Origin: Candidatus Thiovulum imperiosus
Lineage (GTDB): Bacteria; Campylobacterota; Campylobacteria; Campylobacterales; Thiovulaceae
DNA: 64,000 nucleotides
Direction of reading: 5' to 3'
Assembly: GCA_024281175.1 (NCBI GenBank)
Contig: JAMJTW010000010.1
Span: 36,976-100,975, forward strand
Shown: positions 20,421-63,140 of the stretch, one piece after another
Position numbering within the stretch: the stretch's first letter is position 1
How the letters are laid out: the number at the start of each line of letters is the position of its first letter
Made by a program: the position numbers and the translations under genes
The notes under the pieces: model-generated
Database searches by the model: none
What the model saw: only the letters and a program-made list of their open reading frames with translations
What the model was told of the DNA's origin: nothing

Positions 20421-20969
20421 ATGGAACCAAATTTTAACATACAACTTTTAGAAATTATCGATGATGAACCAAGAATTTCACATGTAATTATTGCTGAATA
20501 CACAAACAACAATCCTATTTCAGTTAGAAAACTCATTGATAAATACCATAGCAAAATGGAACTTTTTGGAAAGGTGTCATTTCAAATGACACCTATAAAA
20601 AACTCGAAAAATCGGGTTAATGAAGAAAAAACTTATTTCCTAAACGAACCTCAAGCAACTCTACTTTTAACTTTTTTGCGAAACAATGAAATTGTTGTAA
20701 AGTTCAAGGTTGATTTAGTCAAAGTGTTTTACGAAATGCGAATGAAACTTCACAACAACACTCCTGTTTCAAAACTCTCTCTTTCTGAAACTGTTTCGCA
20801 AACTCGTGAAGCTCTGGAACTCATAGACCTTTTGAAAGAGCGAAAAGGTTTTGATTTGTTACTTTTGGAAAAGATTTTGAAAGAGAATTCTCCAACAAAA
20901 CTTTTAGAAATTGACTTTTCCCAGAAATTCCAAAAGAGATTGGGAATCTCTCCAATTTGCAATCTTTAA
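20421..20969 (+). CDS. Rha-like phage regulatory protein, chimeric 3' end
   Basis: The first 165 or so residues match the copies at 33008 and 63444: LLEIIDDEPRISH, the Rha core KTYFLNEPQATLLLTFLRNN and FEMRMKL-type helices. Rha-type proteins are phage and mobile-element regulators. Where the paralogues continue DFSQTYFLPTELGQLLG, this gene switches at DFSQ into LRR-coding DNA read out of frame and stops after 15 junk residues. The C-terminal domain is therefore missing and activity is doubtful. Confidence 0.7.
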   Translation: MEPNFNIQLLEIIDDEPRISHVIIAEYTNNNPISVRKLIDKYHSKMELFGKVSFQMTPIKNSKNRVNEEKTYFLNEPQATLLLTFLRNNEIVVKFKVDLVKVFYEMRMKLHNNTPVSKLSLSETVSQTREALELIDLLKERKGFDLLLLEKILKENSPTKLLEIDFSQKFQKRLGISPICNL

Positions 20970-21274
20970 GTTTGGGTTCAAACCAAATCATAGAAATTCC
21001 AAAAGAGATTGGGAATCTCTCTAATTTGCAATTTTTGTGTTTGTCTCAAAACCAAATCATGGAACTTCCAAAAGAGATTGGAAATCTCACGAATTTGCAA
21101 TCTTTGAATTTGCAAGGAAGCCAAATCACGGAACTTCCCTCTTCAATTAATAACTTAAGAAGAGTTAATCGCTCTTACAGTGGAAGCAATTGGATTTCCC
21201 CCTCTTCCAACGAAACCCCTTTCCAATTTCTGAACAGAGCTTTAGGATTGCCAGAAAAGAAAAGTCTTGATTAA
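20920..21274 (+). CDS. Short leucine-rich-repeat protein or fragment
   Basis: The LRR frame opens at about 20920 inside the Rha gene, with a first possible ATG at 20957. It encodes four repeats of the type LPKEIGNLTNLQSLNLQG and a C-terminal cap (ETPFQFLNRALGL). The cap matches that of the 838-residue LRR lipoprotein at 37680 (ETPLQFLNRVLEL). It has no signal peptide and is probably the 3' end of a larger LRR gene brought in by recombination. It overlaps the ATPase start. Confidence 0.6.
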
Positions 21275-25052: not shown

Positions 25053-25093
25053 TTATTATTTATAATAAGATACATTCTTATTATAAATAATAA
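25053..25093. promoter_or_regulatory. 18-bp perfect inverted repeat with 5-bp spacer
   Basis: TTATTATTTATAATAAGA at 25053-25070 is exactly complementary to 25076-25093. The dyad contains TATAAT-like -10 sequences on both strands and sits between divergent HTH reading frames. It may be an operator for one of them or a strong cruciform or hairpin. Confidence 0.5.
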
Positions 25094-25103
25094 AGGATTT
25101 CAC

Positions 25104-25322
25104 ATAAATTTAACAGTAAAGGAAGTTTGCCAATATTTAGGTGTTAATCAAAAGGAGTTAGCACAAATTACAGGATATTCAGTTGATACTGTGTCTAAAT
25201 GGAATAGAAGTGTGAATAAAATTCCAAATAGTGCTTTAAACCACTTTAAACTCCTTATTGAAAATAATAGATATAAAAGAATAGATATTCTACTAAAACA
25301 AATAAATGATTTGACAAAATAG
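25104..25322 (+). pseudogene. HTH regulator, module paralogue with ATA in place of the start codon
   Basis: The frame reads LTVKEVCQYLGVNQKELAQ, then SVDTVSKWNRSVNKIPNSA, clearly related to the HTH proteins at 20098, 32791 and 63141. The codon aligned with their start is ATA (25104), eight bases after AAAGGA, and no ATG, GTG or TTG is near. Either a rare ATA start is used or the gene is newly silenced. The body has no frameshift. Confidence 0.6.
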
Positions 25323-25395: not shown

Positions 25396-26231
25396 ATGGA
25401 AATAATGCCGTTTAATTATGAAAATAAAACAATAAGAGCTTTTACAGATAAAAGAGGAAATGTTTGGTTCTCTATAAAAGACTTAGCTAAAGTTCTTGAG
25501 CTATCTAACAGTAGCCAAACTACAGTAGCCAAACTACAACAGATTTACGAAAAGAATATAAAAATATTAATATAGACAAAATTATTTCAACTCATGAAGT
25601 AAGAACTAAAGGAGGTATTCAAAACTTAACTATCATTTCAGAAATAGGAGTAAGAAAGGTTATTGCAAGAGCAAATAAGAAAACTTCAGAGTTTAAAACA
25701 AAATTTCTTAAATCTTTAGGAATAAAAGGAGAATTCTTAGTTGATACTAAAGAGACTAGATTTGGAAGTGAATTGAAAAATTTCATACAAACTATTTATA
25801 GCTTGGAGGTTGAAACTCAGTATCCCGTAAAAAATTACAAACTTGATTTTTATATTTCAGAACTAAACTTAGCTATTGAATTTGATGAAAAACACCACAA
25901 ATATCAAAAAGAAGAAGATGAAAAAAGAGAAAAAGAAATTGAAAATGTTTTGAATTGTAAATTTATTAGGGTTTCCGAAGAAAAATCTATCGGTGAGCAA
26001 TTGGGTTTAGTAATAAAAGCAATAAATGAAAAACCTAAAAAAGAGATTTCTCTCTCAAAACGACAAAAACAGATTTTAGAATATTTACAAAATCAAAAAC
26101 TTTCAACAAAAGAGCTATCTGAAAAACTTGGTTATTCAAAATCAACAATTTTAAAAGATTTAAAGTTTCTTATTGAAAATGGAAAAGTGGAAAAAATCAA
26201 AAGTGGAAGAAATATTTTCTACAAAATATAA
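25396..26231 (+). pseudogene. BRO-N / DUF559-like nuclease / winged-helix gene split by a 14-bp duplication
   Basis: The ATG at 25396 opens a BRO-N domain (PFNYENKTIRAFTDKRGNVWFSIKDLAKVLELS). At 25510-25537 the 14-mer AGTAGCCAAACTAC occurs twice in tandem and throws the reading out of frame, giving a stop at about 25575. Removing one copy restores a single ORF to 26231. It continues HEVRTKGGIQNLTIISEIG (BRO-N end), then an endonuclease-like segment (KLDFYISELNLAIEFDEKHH, as in DUF559/Vsr-like proteins) and a C-terminal winged helix (LSTKELSEKLGYSKSTILKDL). The track shows only the last 152 residues. Confidence 0.75.
25510..25537 (+). repeat. 14-bp tandem duplication causing the frameshift
   Basis: The unit AGTAGCCAAACTAC is present twice without a mismatch. 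Fourteen is not a multiple of three, so loss or gain of one unit toggles the gene on and off. It is either a very recent slippage mutation or a phase-variation switch. Confidence 0.85.
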
Positions 26232-26422
26232 ATTTTCTTCCAACAGAACTTGGAAAACTTCTTGGAATTTCTCCACATGAAATGAATTTGCTTTTGGAGA
26301 AAAAGGGTTTTCAAGAAAATGAAAATGGAATTTGGAAAATTACAGAAAGTGGAAAAAGTTTTGGAATGGAAATTGGAGGAAAGTTTTCACAACTCAAATG
26401 GAGAGTGGAAAGTATTGTATAA
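26225..26422 (+). pseudogene. Orphan Rha C-terminal domain
   Basis: An open frame without a start encodes FLPTELGKLLGISPHEMNLL and runs on through ITESGKSFGMEIGGKF to a stop at 26422. It matches the C-terminus of the Rha copy at 33475-33670 almost residue for residue. The N-terminal half of such a gene lies 5 kb to the left (20421), so cargo seems to have entered between the two parts. Confidence 0.75.
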
Positions 26423-26446: not shown

Positions 26447-26677
26447 ATGAAGAAAGCAATAAATATCAGAATGGAAGAGGAACTTCTAAAAAATTTGGAT
26501 AGCTATGCAAAAGAGCTAGATAGAACTAGAACATACCTCATCGAAAAGGCAGTAACTCTCTATTTGGATACTTTAGATGGAATGGTTTCAGACAAAAGAA
26601 TTGATGATGTCAAAAGTGGAAAAAGTGAAGTCTATTCACTTCAAGAAGTTGCTCAAAAATTGGGACTAGATGTATAA
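26447..26677 (+). CDS. Ribbon-helix-helix antitoxin
   Basis: The 76-residue protein begins MKKAINIRMEEELLKNLDSYAKELDRTRTYLIEKAVTLYL, a typical RHH (CopG/Arc-like) DNA-binding fold, with a C-terminal tail (YSLQEVAQKLGL) that would wrap the toxin. It overlaps the toxin gene by eight bases. Antitoxin and operon autorepressor is the expected role. Confidence 0.82.
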   Translation: MKKAINIRMEEELLKNLDSYAKELDRTRTYLIEKAVTLYLDTLDGMVSDKRIDDVKSGKSEVYSLQEVAQKLGLDV

Positions 26678-26921
26678 AATCATCATTCCTGAACATACTT
26701 TCAAAGAACTTTCTAAAATAGATAAACCAAATCAGCAACTTGTTTTTAACAAAATCAAAGATTTAGAAAGTGGAATTTTTACAGGAGATAAACCTTTAAA
26801 AGGAAAACATCAGGGCAAGTTCCGAAAAAGGGCTGGAAATTATCGAATTATCTATTTAAAAGAGAACAATATTCTTCTTATTACAGTTATCAGAATTACA
26901 CATAGAAAAGAGATTTATTAA
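26670..26921 (+). CDS. RelE/ParE-family toxin
   Basis: The 83-residue protein has the RelE/ParE core: IPEHTFKELSKID, KIKDLESGIFTGDKPLKGKHQGKFRKRAGNYRIIYL and a final IRITHRKEIY with the family histidine and tyrosine. RelE-type members cut mRNA on the ribosome and ParE-type members poison gyrase. The RITHRKEIY ending fits the RelE group better. Confidence 0.82.
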   Translation: MYKIIIPEHTFKELSKIDKPNQQLVFNKIKDLESGIFTGDKPLKGKHQGKFRKRAGNYRIIYLKENNILLITVIRITHRKEIY

Positions 26922-27179: not shown

Positions 27180-27276
27180 TATTTTTGAGGTTCTATTTCC
27201 AGCAGGTTTTATAGTTACTGGAATTACAGCATATTTTGCACATAAATATAATTGGAAAATTGCAAAGTGGTTTTAA
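27169..27276 (+). CDS. 35-residue membrane peptide
   Basis: An ATG inside the end of the preceding gene opens a short frame with one hydrophobic segment (VLFPAGFIVTGITAYFAHKY) and a basic tail, too short for the ORF track. It overlaps the previous stop and the MntA start. Translational coupling makes it plausible, but there is no independent support. Confidence 0.35.
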   Translation: MESNIFEVLFPAGFIVTGITAYFAHKYNWKIAKWF

Positions 27277-27581
27277 ATGAGATAATTTTTCGACTCCAAA
27301 AGCTAAATAGAGAGTTTGAAAAAGTTGGTTTCTATATTATTGGAGTTTTTGGAAGTTATGCGAGAGGTGAAAATAGAGAAGATAGTGATTTAGATATTCT
27401 CTATAAAATAGATAATAAGTTTGTAGAAAAATTTGGGGGTTGGAGTGCAATTATTGAGATTGAGAAGATAAAGTCAAAAATAGAGAAGAGTTTGAATATC
27501 TCAAAAGTTGATTTGGCAACATCAGATACAAATAATCAAACATTACAGAATGCTATTCAAAAGGAGCTTGTTTTTGTCTAA
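27267..27581 (+). CDS. mntA: MntA-type nucleotidyltransferase antitoxin
   Basis: The minimal nucleotidyltransferase motif is intact (GVFGSYARGENREDSDLDILY), with GSxxRG followed by two catalytic aspartates. MntA antitoxins AMPylate the HepT toxin at its active-site region. The track starts at TTG 27252; the in-frame GTG at 27267 is equally possible. The end overlaps hepT by eight bases. Confidence 0.85.
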   Translation: MVLNEIIFRLQKLNREFEKVGFYIIGVFGSYARGENREDSDLDILYKIDNKFVEKFGGWSAIIEIEKIKSKIEKSLNISKVDLATSDTNNQTLQNAIQKELVFV

Positions 27582-27915
27582 GAGTGATATTGAAAGATTG
27601 AGGTTTGCATTTGAAAAAGTTGAAGATGCTCTAAATTATAGAGATAGTTTTGAGAGTATTGAAAAACTTTTAAATTCAAAAATGGGCTTTGACGCAACAA
27701 CAATGTGTATTATGCAAGTTGGAGAGACTCTTAATAAATTAGATAAAAGTTTTGCAAAGAAGTATCCACAACTACCAATTAAAGAGAGTTATTTAACAAG
27801 AAACTATATAGCTCACGATTACGAAGGAGTTAGTAAGATGATAATTGAGGTGATTATTAGAGAACATTTTCCAAAATTGAAAAATGATATTTTAGATATT
27901 TTGAGAAATAGATGA
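27574..27915 (+). CDS. hepT: HepT-type HEPN toxin
   Basis: The HEPN ribonuclease signature RX4HXY is present as RNYIAHDY near the C-terminus. The track begins at 27508, but AAGGAG at about 27561 followed by TTG at 27574 gives a 113-residue product of family size (SKSDIERLRFAFEKVEDAL). It pairs with the MntA gene just before it as a type VII-like toxin-antitoxin system. Confidence 0.85.
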   Translation: MSKSDIERLRFAFEKVEDALNYRDSFESIEKLLNSKMGFDATTMCIMQVGETLNKLDKSFAKKYPQLPIKESYLTRNYIAHDYEGVSKMIIEVIIREHFPKLKNDILDILRNR

Positions 27916-29815: not shown

Positions 29816-30163
29816 AAGGAGAATATCTCTAAAAGTCGAAAAAAAGGAAATCAAGAAACTCAACTGAAAAATAGAACTACCCAAATTAAAGAACTTATCA
29901 CAGATAATTTACAAGATTTTGAAGAGTTTGGACAGCTTCGGTTTCAAACCGAGAGTGTAAGCAATTCGGTAGGTGCAGTAAACGAACAGAAAACTTATTG
30001 GGATTTCTTCGCACGAAATGAATTTACTTTACTTTTGGAGAAAAAAGGTTTTCAGGAAAATGAGGACGGAGTTTGGAAAATTACAGAAAGTGGAAAAGAG
30101 TTTGGAATGGAGATTGGAGGAAAGTTTTCACAACTGAAATGGAGAGTAGATACAATATTGTAA
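29815..30163 (+). pseudogene. Rha relic with internal deletion
   Basis: An open frame without ATG runs ISKSRKKGNQETQLKNRT, then a Rha core start (FGQLRFQTESVSNSVGAVNEQKTY). It jumps directly into the Rha C-terminus (LLLEKKGFQENEDGVWKI to SQLKWRVDTIL). About 90 residues that should separate these blocks are missing. The end sits three bases before the restriction-modification gene. Confidence 0.7.
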
Positions 30164-30166
30164 AAA

Positions 30167-32455
30167 ATGAAAAAAATTGAAAGACAACTACAAGGGGAAT
30201 TTCTCCATGTCTTTAAAACTCTTTTTTCTGAAGAGAAATATAGAGACTTTGAAATTATTCAAGAGGAGGAGAGAGCAGATTTAATAGTTTCTAAAAGTGG
30301 AAAAGCTCTTTTCTTTCTGGAGTTGAAAGACCCGTTGGTAGTTAAAAGTTCTGGAGATGCGGAAACTTTTAAAAGAGAAACTTTACGAGCAGTTAGAATT
30401 GGTATTCCACATTTTGGAATTACAAATTTTGTGGAGGCAAGTATCTACTCTTTGCAAGTAGAAACCAAGGAAAACTACGAAAACAGAGATTTTCCAAAAC
30501 TTTCAGATATAGAGAGATACCGAAATAGTAAAACAGTTTCAAAAGATTTAAATAGAAAGCTCCAAAATTTAGCAATTTGGTATCTCAAAAAAGCAGAAGC
30601 GATTTTCTTAAAAGGTGACATTCCAGAACAAGCTCCAGATGAAATTTTTATTTTGAAACTTCAAAGAGGAATTGAGCGATTTGGATTTAAAATTTCAGAA
30701 AGAGTTTTTGAAAAGTATCAGAAGAGTAGAGATTTTGCAATAGAGATACAGAACTACTTTCAATCTCAACAGTGGAGTATTCCAACAGAAGAAGCTGATT
30801 TCGACAATTTTTCACACATTGCTGTTTTACAATTTGTCTCAAAAATCATTTTTTACAACTCTATAAAAGATTTTGGAAAGTATGGATTAGGTGAAATTGA
30901 TAAAGATGATATTTGGAACTCTTTTGAGGAATTGAAAGAGAAGACTGGAAATTTTGAACTTCTGATTGGAGAGAATAGTTTTCTTGAAAGTAAGGTAGTA
31001 GAAGATTTTTCAAAAGAGATAGCTGATGAGGTTCTGGAAAATTCAGAGAAGTATAACTTTTCCAAAATGAAAGAGGACATCATCGGGCGAATTTTTGAGG
31101 AACTAATAAAACCGAATGAGAGACACAAATTAGGACAGTACTTCACCTCATCAGCAGTTGTAAAAACTGTAAATGCTTTTTGTATTCGAGAAGCGAACCT
31201 TAAAGTTCTTGACCCAAGTTGCGGTTCAGGTGCATTTCTTACAGAGGTTTATGAGAGGAAAAAAAGTTTAGGAGAGAAAGACCACACCAAACTTTTAGAA
31301 GAGATATATGGAGTTGATATTTCAAGCTACCCATCTTATTTAGCAACTCTCAATCTAGCAATTCGGAATTTAGGCGAAAAGTCCTATCCTCGAATTGTTC
31401 AGAAAGATTTCTTCCAAGTTGCGAAGAGTTTGGAAAAGTCTGTTTCAAAAGAGAAAATTCATGATAGCGATGGGGTAGAGCAAGAAGTCGAATTTACACA
31501 ATTTGATGCAATTGTTGGAAATCCTCCATACACTCGACAAGAGGATATTGATGCCTACAATCCAAATCAGAAAGAGCAAATTTTAGAGACTCTAGCTTCA
31601 GAGTTGGGAGGTTTTACAAAACATATTTCAAAACGAACTTCAATTTATGCCTATTTCTTCTATCGAGCAAAACGACTTTTAAAAGATGGTGGATACCTCG
31701 GTTTTATAACTTCAAACTCTTGGCTTGATGTCGATTTTGGCGAAACTCTTCAAAAACATCTTCTTAAAAACTTTCATGTCGTCGCAATCATCGATAGCAA
31801 AGTTGAACGATTTTTTGAAAGTGCTGATGTCAATACAAATATCACTATTTTGAAAAAAGGGAAAGGGAAAAGAACTAAATTTGTCTATCTAAAAAAACCT
31901 CTTTCGGAAGTTCTAAAAAAGTTTGGTGGTGAAATTGGATTTAGGGATTTTATAGAAGAGCAGAACACTCTTTTTGAAGATGAGTTCTTAAGAGTAAATC
32001 CAGTTTCTCAATGCCGACTCTCCAAAGATACGAAATGGAGCAAATACCTAAAAGCCCCTAAAGTCTATTGGGAAATCTTGAAAAAAGGTAAAGGGAAATG
32101 GAAGAGATTGGGGGATATTGCAAATGTAAGATTTGGAGTAAAAACAGGTGCAAATGAGTTTTTCTATTTAGAGAAATTGGAAGAAAAAGGAGACTCCTAT
32201 CTTCTAAAAAATGGAATTGGTGAAGAAGTTCTAATTGAGAAAAGGTTTATAAAACCTGTCATCAAATCTCCTCGAGAAATTAAAGGTTTTGTTGTAAAAC
32301 CTGAAGAACTTAAATATTCGGTTCTTATGGTTTCGGGTCTTGAACGAGAAGAGATTTCAAAGAAATTTCCAAATCTTGAAAGATACTTGAAAAGAGGTGA
32401 AGAACGAAACTACCATGAGAGAAGCTCACTTAAAAGTAGGCGAAAAGAGTTCTAA
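30167..32455 (+). CDS. Type IIG restriction-modification enzyme, C-terminally truncated
   Basis: An N-terminal nuclease-like block (ERADLIVSKSGKALFFLELKD, D-X(n)-ELK) is followed by a helical linker. The N6-adenine methyltransferase domain has LGQYFTSSAVVK, motif I DPSCGSGAFL and motif IV VGNPPYTRQ. A target-recognition region begins near residue 630 (WKRLGDIANVRFGVKTGANEFFYL) but breaks off at HERSSLKSRRKEF. Type IIG enzymes are usually 900 or more residues. The usual tail appears out of frame just downstream, so the specificity half was lost. Without it, specific cutting or methylation is doubtful. Confidence 0.8.
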   Translation: MKKIERQLQGEFLHVFKTLFSEEKYRDFEIIQEEERADLIVSKSGKALFFLELKDPLVVKSSGDAETFKRETLRAVRIGIPHFGITNFVEASIYSLQVETKENYENRDFPKLSDIERYRNSKTVSKDLNRKLQNLAIWYLKKAEAIFLKGDIPEQAPDEIFILKLQRGIERFGFKISERVFEKYQKSRDFAIEIQNYFQSQQWSIPTEEADFDNFSHIAVLQFVSKIIFYNSIKDFGKYGLGEIDKDDIWNSFEELKEKTGNFELLIGENSFLESKVVEDFSKEIADEVLENSEKYNFSKMKEDIIGRIFEELIKPNERHKLGQYFTSSAVVKTVNAFCIREANLKVLDPSCGSGAFLTEVYERKKSLGEKDHTKLLEEIYGVDISSYPSYLATLNLAIRNLGEKSYPRIVQKDFFQVAKSLEKSVSKEKIHDSDGVEQEVEFTQFDAIVGNPPYTRQEDIDAYNPNQKEQILETLASELGGFTKHISKRTSIYAYFFYRAKRLLKDGGYLGFITSNSWLDVDFGETLQKHLLKNFHVVAIIDSKVERFFESADVNTNITILKKGKGKRTKFVYLKKPLSEVLKKFGGEIGFRDFIEEQNTLFEDEFLRVNPVSQCRLSKDTKWSKYLKAPKVYWEILKKGKGKWKRLGDIANVRFGVKTGANEFFYLEKLEEKGDSYLLKNGIGEEVLIEKRFIKPVIKSPREIKGFVVKPEELKYSVLMVSGLEREEISKKFPNLERYLKRGEERNYHERSSLKSRRKEF

Positions 32456-32702
32456 AAATCGGAAAAAAGCAGATATTGAACTTCTAACTTCCGAGTTCTT
32501 GAAACTTGTTGAAAAGAGTCCTGAAAAGAGTTCTAAGTTTCTAAAATACCTATCTGATGAGGTTCAGAAAATCACACCAGATAAAAAAGAGCAAAAATCT
32601 ATTCTTTCAAATTTCTGGAAAAAGAAATTTTCAGAAAACTTACCAACTTTGAAAGCTCTTCAAAAAGTTGAAAAAGAGAGTAAGCAAAGAGAACTTTTTT
32701 AA
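32430..32702 (+). pseudogene. Detached tail of the type IIG enzyme
   Basis: In the next frame the sequence encodes KSSKNRKKADIELLTSEFL, then LKYLSDEVQKIT and KVEKESKQRELF, the sort of helical C-terminal tail found in this methyltransferase family. The frame change coincides with the point where the recognition domain ends. A deletion has joined the two ends out of frame. The ORF track lists this part from 32397. Confidence 0.6.
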
Positions 32703-33015: not shown

Positions 33016-33670
33016 CGACGAACCAAGAATTTCACATCGTGTAATTGCTGAACATACAAATAATCAGCAGAAAAATGTTGTCGAGCTTATTCAAAAATAC
33101 ATCGATAAATTCGAGCTTTTTGGAGCGGTTCCGTTTAAAACGGAAGTGCTAAAAGCTGGAAGGGGAACAACAAAAGCTAAAACTTATTTCCTAAACGAAC
33201 CTCAAGCCACTTTACTTTTAACCTTTTTACGAAACAATGAAATTGTTGTAGAGTTCAAAGTTGATTTAGTCAAAGTGTTTTACGAAATGCGAATGAAACT
33301 TCAAAACCATACCCCTTCTCAAAAACTCTCTCTTTCTGAAACTGTTGCCGAAACTGAAATTGCCTTAAAACTCATAGACCTTTTAAAAGAGAGCAAAGGT
33401 TTCGATTTGCTACTTTTGGAAAAGGTTTTGAAAGAGAGTTCACCAACAAAACTTTTAGAAATAGACTTTTCTCAAACCTACTTTCTTCCAACAGAACTCG
33501 GACAACTTCTTGGAATTTCTCCGCATGAAATGAACTTGCTTTTGGAGAAAAAAGGCTTCCAAGTTTCTAAGAACGGAGTTTGGAAAATTACAGAGAGTGG
33601 AAAAAGTTTTGGAATGGAGATTGGAGGAAAGTTTTCACAACTGAAATGGAGAGTAGATACAATTTTGTAA
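33008..33670 (+). CDS. Rha-like regulatory protein, module copy 2
   Basis: The full Rha homology begins at KIIDDEPRISHRVIAEHT close to 33008, but that part has no ATG, GTG or TTG. The first usable start is GTG 33146, used by the track (174 residues). The core KTYFLNEPQATLLLTFLRNN and the complete C-terminus (YFLPTELGQLLGISPHEM to WRVDTIL) are present. A deletion between HTH and Rha probably removed the promoter and start, so expression by coupling or silencing are both possible. Confidence 0.65.
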   Translation: MIDDEPRISHRVIAEHTNNQQKNVVELIQKYIDKFELFGAVPFKTEVLKAGRGTTKAKTYFLNEPQATLLLTFLRNNEIVVEFKVDLVKVFYEMRMKLQNHTPSQKLSLSETVAETEIALKLIDLLKESKGFDLLLLEKVLKESSPTKLLEIDFSQTYFLPTELGQLLGISPHEMNLLLEKKGFQVSKNGVWKITESGKSFGMEIGGKFSQLKWRVDTIL

Positions 33671-62884: not shown

Positions 62885-63140
62885 TGAAGAAACTTTGCAA
62901 ATAGGAAGCTACTCCCTTTCAGAACTTCTAAACTTTTCAGAAATCATTTTTGTAAATGAAGAAACTCTAAAGTTGTAGAACTTTTCAAGAACTGGAAAAC
63001 TTCACGGTCTTTCTCCAGTTGAAACAAATTTGGAACTCCAAAAGCAAGGTTTTCAAGAAAAGGAAAATGGAAGTTGGAAACTCTATTTCGAAACTAAAGT
63101 TCCGACTTCTATTTTTGTAAAATTTCAGAAAAGGATTTTT
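62885..63140 (+). pseudogene. Rha C-terminal relic
   Basis: Fragments SELLNFSEIIFVNEETLK, then TGKLHGLSPVETNLELQKQGFQEKENGSWKL match the Rha copy beginning at 63444 (FSEILSVNEEALK and EIGKLHGLSPVET), with the middle deleted and a stop inside. The track ORF at 63030 joins this tail to the HTH gene by chance. Confidence 0.65.

Follow-up and report, generated by a model that had tools for sequence, protein, structure and literature searches.

A 14-bp tandem duplication splits a Bro-N/DUF559/winged-helix gene in a probably decaying XRE-Bro module

Introduction

Does a perfect short tandem duplication that breaks a reading frame mark a gene in decay, or a gene that is reversibly switched? The question is raised by a locus in the window analyzed here, a stretch of 64,000 nucleotides from Candidatus Thiovulum imperiosus, where such a duplication divides a gene encoding a Bro-N domain, a DUF559 nuclease domain and a winged helix. 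Bro-Xre repressor-antirepressor pairs have been described in phages and not in bacterial genomes (Makarova 2009, PMC2701414), and in a test performed in pneumococcus Bro was toxic or growth-inhibiting while Xre gave no relief (Chan 2014, PMC4257102). In pneumococcus, capsule genes are reported to be switched by reversible tandem duplications inside open reading frames (Waite 2001, 2003, cited by PMC4022640), and such duplications are also precedented in fungi (PMC13207564). The answer that we favour, with a probability of roughly 0.78, is that a recent slippage duplication involving ACA microhomology broke one Bro-N/DUF559/winged-helix gene within a decaying XRE-Bro module.

Results

The sequence AGTAGCCAAACTAC was found as two perfect head-to-tail copies (25510-25523 and 25524-25537) within a periodic stretch of 31 nt with a period of 14. 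The chance expectation for the duplication was 0.02 matches at up to one mismatch, and no tandem duplication with a period of at least 12 appeared in 20 second-order shuffles of the window. The 5′ open reading frame runs from ATG at 25396 to TAG at 25575 and encodes 59 amino acids; a second frame is open from 25524 to TAA at 26231 (235 codons plus stop) and contains no ATG, GTG or TTG before the TTG at 25773. The first-pass annotation had proposed that the two copies shift the frame and split the gene and that a single copy gives a full open reading frame. Both statements were borne out, since the copies occupy 25510-25537 ahead of the TAG, and leaving one out yields an uninterrupted gene of 273 codons spanning 25396-26231. 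In the one-copy context the unit is bounded on both sides by ACA, constituting a 3-bp microhomology, and each copy is able to form a 4-bp hairpin. Because these features fit replication slippage, we infer that slippage caused the duplication.

Table 1. Features of the split gene and its surroundings, with positions in the window.
Feature	Position	Strand	Remarks
Small XRE-type HTH partner gene	25104..25322	+	72 codons; ATA in the start position; related genes in three genomes
5′ fragment of the split gene	25396..25575	+	First half of Bro-N; Pfam Bro-N 1.5e-5, profile positions 2-41 of 96
14-bp tandem duplication	25508..25538	+	Copies 25510-25523 and 25524-25537; 3-bp ACA microhomology at unit ends
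Downstream open frame	25524..26231	+	Remainder of Bro-N, followed by DUF559 nuclease domain and winged helix; out of frame with 25396
DUF559/AbaSI-like nuclease domain	25800..26024	+	Residues 93-167 of the downstream frame; PADLOC mREase_II 9e-12
Winged-helix domain	26061..26207	+	Residues 180-228 of the downstream frame; HTH_DeoR 6e-11
Out-of-frame remnant of antirepressor-type C-terminal tail	26234..26422	+	Directly after the stop codon; no Pfam match for the tail

All three domains of the split gene were recognized by Pfam: Bro-N, DUF559 (1.1e-6) and a DeoR-type HTH. The 5′ fragment matches phage anti-repressor families. The DUF559 match lies above the curated cut-off and is accompanied by a D...ExD-type motif (LDF...IEFDEKHH), and a plasmid protein that matches the nuclease (34% over 94 residues) carries the annotation AbaSI family restriction endonuclease. 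An AlphaFold2 model of an intact paralogue, built with three sequences only, had a pLDDT of 54 overall and below 50 in the nuclease region; the winged helix was confidently modelled in an intact paralogue. Judging from these domains, Bro-N and the winged helix probably mediate DNA binding by the intact protein, and the products of the intact relatives are most likely DNA-binding regulators akin to phage repressors and antirepressors. The split gene has presumably lost its function.

Three intact, one-piece paralogues are encoded in the same genome (L014:16046-16945, L015:3456-4310 and L016:862-1680 on the minus strand), so that the split gene is one of four Bro-N/DUF559/winged-helix genes. The intact paralogues comprise 272-299 codons and all contain Bro-N (Pfam 2.4e-12 and 7.5e-10), DUF559 and the winged helix. 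Across the duplication site, the one-copy reading of the window gene aligns without gaps with the paralogues and with other Bro-N proteins (e.g. ...VLELSNSSQTTTDLRKEY versus ...VLGLKDSKGAIRDLRKRY). Given the intact paralogues and this gap-free alignment, the one-copy state is by comparison the ancestral one and the two-copy form is derived. Similarity between the window copy and the paralogues has a sharp onset at ~25750 and runs to ~26410, with DNA identity of ~86% across the nuclease part and 41-48% in the sequence preceding it.

The age of the break was assessed over 157 aligned codons of the DUF559-winged-helix part. The window copy gave dN/dS values of 0.131, 0.105 and 0.164 against the three paralogues, and the paralogues gave 0.074-0.155 among themselves. 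The downstream frame contains no other stop in its 235 codons. Because the two copies are identical, no further stop has accumulated and dN/dS is low, the break appears to be young, and these ratios indicate that constraint acted on the gene through almost its entire history. The window copy is the most distant of the four DUF559-type copies; changes unique to it in this part amount to 13 nonsynonymous and 10 synonymous codons, versus 9 and 17 for the other three pooled. This excess of nonsynonymous codons hints at relaxed selection on the window branch.

The XRE partner is co-directional with the split gene and lies 73 nt upstream of it. It is preceded by a Shine-Dalgarno-like AAAGGA (25092-25097), and its HTH profile matches are mostly below the Pfam cut-offs. 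The codon at 25104 is ATA; ATG, GTG or TTG occupies this position in all 25 correctly placed relatives from the three genomes. ATA can serve as a weak start codon, and the partner may still be made from it. Nevertheless the partner looks damaged, and its lack of a normal start codon suggests that the locus is decaying.

The window module belongs to a large family. Bro-N matches number 26 in this draft genome of 36 contigs, 21 in a genome of the same genus, 19 in one of another genus of the family and 0-2 in other genomes of the order, with one genome per species. The expansion was thus seen in three of the five genomes examined of this bacterial family (f1), and the same three genomes contain 25, 30 and 32 relatives of the window XRE. 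Many Bro copies are preceded by a small related XRE-type gene. Searches for the particular gene returned little: no orthologue of the locus was detected in 59 relatives, where the best same-genus match was another Bro gene; the same protein, sought in 84,980 species genomes, was matched once and in part, by a DUF559-containing integrase-like protein of Tenacibaculum; viral contigs, searched by protein and by DNA pattern, gave nothing; phage and plasmid records held no full-length relative and none covering 80% of the query; and a literature search for the combination of Bro-N with DUF559 found none. The first-pass annotation had called the fused architecture unusual. This holds outside the genome, where it is rare, but not within it, given the three intact copies, and Bro-N with varied C-terminal parts is the rule in the family.

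All four DUF559-type copies are followed, after their stop codon and in another frame, by a tail sequence of ~60 codons that in other Bro copies lies within the gene. The DUF559-type copies therefore look like genes that took up a nuclease and winged helix after Bro-N, ahead of the usual C-terminal tail. The tail (FLPTELGKLLGISPHEMNLLLEKKGF...), of antirepressor type, recurs in the window at 29989-30165, 33482-33670 and 62988-63080 in addition to the copy listed in Table 1; some copies lie inside genes and some are remnants outside any frame with a start codon. It was initially read as KilAC, a name that was dropped as Pfam gave no match. Additionally, a GIY-YIG-like stretch was noted by eye at L011 / L014:1505-2482, and past a stop there follows the winged-helix end that the DUF559 genes also have; this is possibly another nuclease joined to the DUF559-type winged helix.

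Comparison of modules from G000, G001 and G004 revealed conserved outer ends and a variable centre. Residues 1-20 of XRE were 95% identical among 14 copies and the remainder 29%; within each C-terminal type, Bro-N was 39-55% identical and the C-terminal parts 76-90%. Such a pattern looks like cassette exchange between copies. Other broken Bro copies contain a stop and a frameshift (L070), 1-nt frameshifts (L077, L078) or lost or truncated N-termini (L079-L082), and among the broken Bro-N copies examined in this genome and two relatives, none was broken by a tandem duplication. Split Bro-N frames at a similar place in G001 and G004 had looked like a hotspot; this candidate was rejected, as the lesions are 1-nt indels and the search had been limited to the Bro-N domain. 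Likewise rejected was an 8-bp duplication at L045:14805, which had seemed to interrupt a frame but proved to be intergenic.

The neighbourhood was also inspected. Just upstream of the split gene, the reverse transcriptase encoded at 23042-24469 matches the known anti-phage system DRT2 (PADLOC 5e-152), and a gene pair at 21267-22633 matches HEC-02, a candidate defence system (A 4e-130, B 3e-18). A Rha-type regulator is located at 20421-21274 (Phage_pRha 4.6e-14), its tail running into leucine-rich repeats in an overlapping frame. On the other side are RHH/ParE-type (26447-26921) and nucleotidyltransferase/HepT-type (MNT/HepT; 27252-27915) gene pairs, and a type IIG restriction-methylation-like gene (30167-32702) with an apparent frameshift break near 32400 and an overlapping short open reading frame next to it.

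Discussion

We propose that a single recent replication slippage, aided by the ACA...ACA microhomology, duplicated 14 bp within the coding sequence of Bro-N. This event would have inactivated one of the four Bro-N/DUF559/winged-helix genes, leaving a protein truncated after half of Bro-N. The gene is the second member of a small XRE-Bro module, one of more than 20 in the genome, and such modules would continually arise, swap parts and decay. Within the DUF559 subfamily, a Vsr/AbaSI-like PD-(D/E)XK nuclease and a winged helix would have taken the place of the usual C-terminal part. The module in the window is probably dying, with a truncated nuclease protein and ATA where the XRE start belongs.

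The first-pass annotation suggested instead that the locus may be phase-variable, with slippage gaining and losing the duplication at a useful rate and thereby switching a nuclease-regulator on and off. The perfect identity of the copies and the otherwise intact frame would suit such a switch, as would the pneumococcal and fungal precedents and the surrounding defence and toxin-antitoxin genes, a setting in which a switch would be sensible. However, there are just two copies of the unit and no conserved repeat tract, the 14-mer is found nowhere else in the genome and is absent from G001-G004, and the three intact paralogues carry no such duplication at the site. A survey of sampled stretches totalling 505 kb of the genome identified this as the sole perfect duplication with a unit of at least 10 bp whose removal lengthens a frame, so the genome shows no general tendency to such duplications. 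Since the 14-mer is unique, other broken Bro copies contain ordinary lesions, the case stands alone in 505 kb and the XRE partner has ATA, decay is favoured and we regard phase variation as quite unlikely. Any tandem duplication is able to revert, and the earlier description of the event as recent or reversible is upheld to the extent that the break is young and could in principle still revert; the locus shows no sign of a phase-variable system. A still broader proposal, that XRE-Bro cassettes across the family have their specificities reshuffled by recombination and are silenced and revived by small reversible duplications, appears very improbable.

The duplication could also be an artefact of assembly or sequencing, the organism really having one copy, and a 36-contig draft in which Bro, XRE and intergenic repeats are numerous and nearly identical might indeed mislead an assembler. 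Yet the duplicated segment is unique sequence and none of the shared repeats, errors seldom take the form of an exact 14-bp tandem duplication, and the 505-kb survey encountered no second frame-breaking case, making this explanation rather unlikely. We give least credence to recoding, whereby a ribosome hop between the copies or a -1 shift within 25510-25575 produces the full-length protein, or the nuclease part alone is made from TTG 25773. The copies do present matched codons, and GGAA stands 5 nt before this TTG at the start of the nuclease region, but the GGAA lies in conserved coding sequence (EFGKEL in the paralogues) and so needs no separate explanation. Moreover, no classical slippery heptamer was apparent by eye, no strong structure was found beyond two small 4-bp hairpins (-5.0 kcal/mol), and the arrangement is not common to the paralogues.

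Under the favoured reading of slippage and decay, the duplication in itself is an ordinary inactivating mutation and its value lies in the setting: three of the five family genomes examined each have ~20 or more XRE-Bro modules on the chromosome, with C-terminal parts that include a captured nuclease. The XRE-Bro modules of this family show active birth, exchange and death. If the intact copies are functional, they may form a multi-copy regulatory or anti-phage set. A role of the intact protein in phage conflict is a reasonable proposal because of its AbaSI-like nuclease and the surrounding DRT2, HEC-02, type IIG-like enzyme and RHH/ParE and MNT/HepT pairs.

Several known systems resemble parts of the locus. 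The DUF559 match, the LDF...IEFDEKHH motif and the mREase_II match liken the nuclease to DUF559, AbaSI/PvuRts1I-like and Vsr-like PD-(D/E)XK nucleases; it differs from these in lying between Bro-N and a winged helix, with no SRA-like reader domain found. Pneumococcal capsule switching (Waite 2001, 2003, cited by PMC4022640) shares the perfect short tandem duplication that shifts the frame within a coding region, whereas the single genome here shows no sign of reversion, mixed populations or recurrence. With the Bro-Xre pairs, the locus shares a Bro-N protein whose gene is directly preceded by a small, adjacent and co-directional gene of the XRE HTH type, occurrence in many copies and matches to phage anti-repressors. 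Unlike those pairs, described by Makarova from phages only, it is one of more than 20 copies on the contigs of a chromosome, and the window copy is broken. Because a DUF559 nuclease and a winged helix replace the usual Ant, KilAC or ORF6C C-terminal domain, the locus is, by its predicted domains, a variant of the Bro-Xre pair and not a standard member. The best reading is that it belongs to an established type of gene pair, was broken only recently and carries a C-terminal part that is uncommon.
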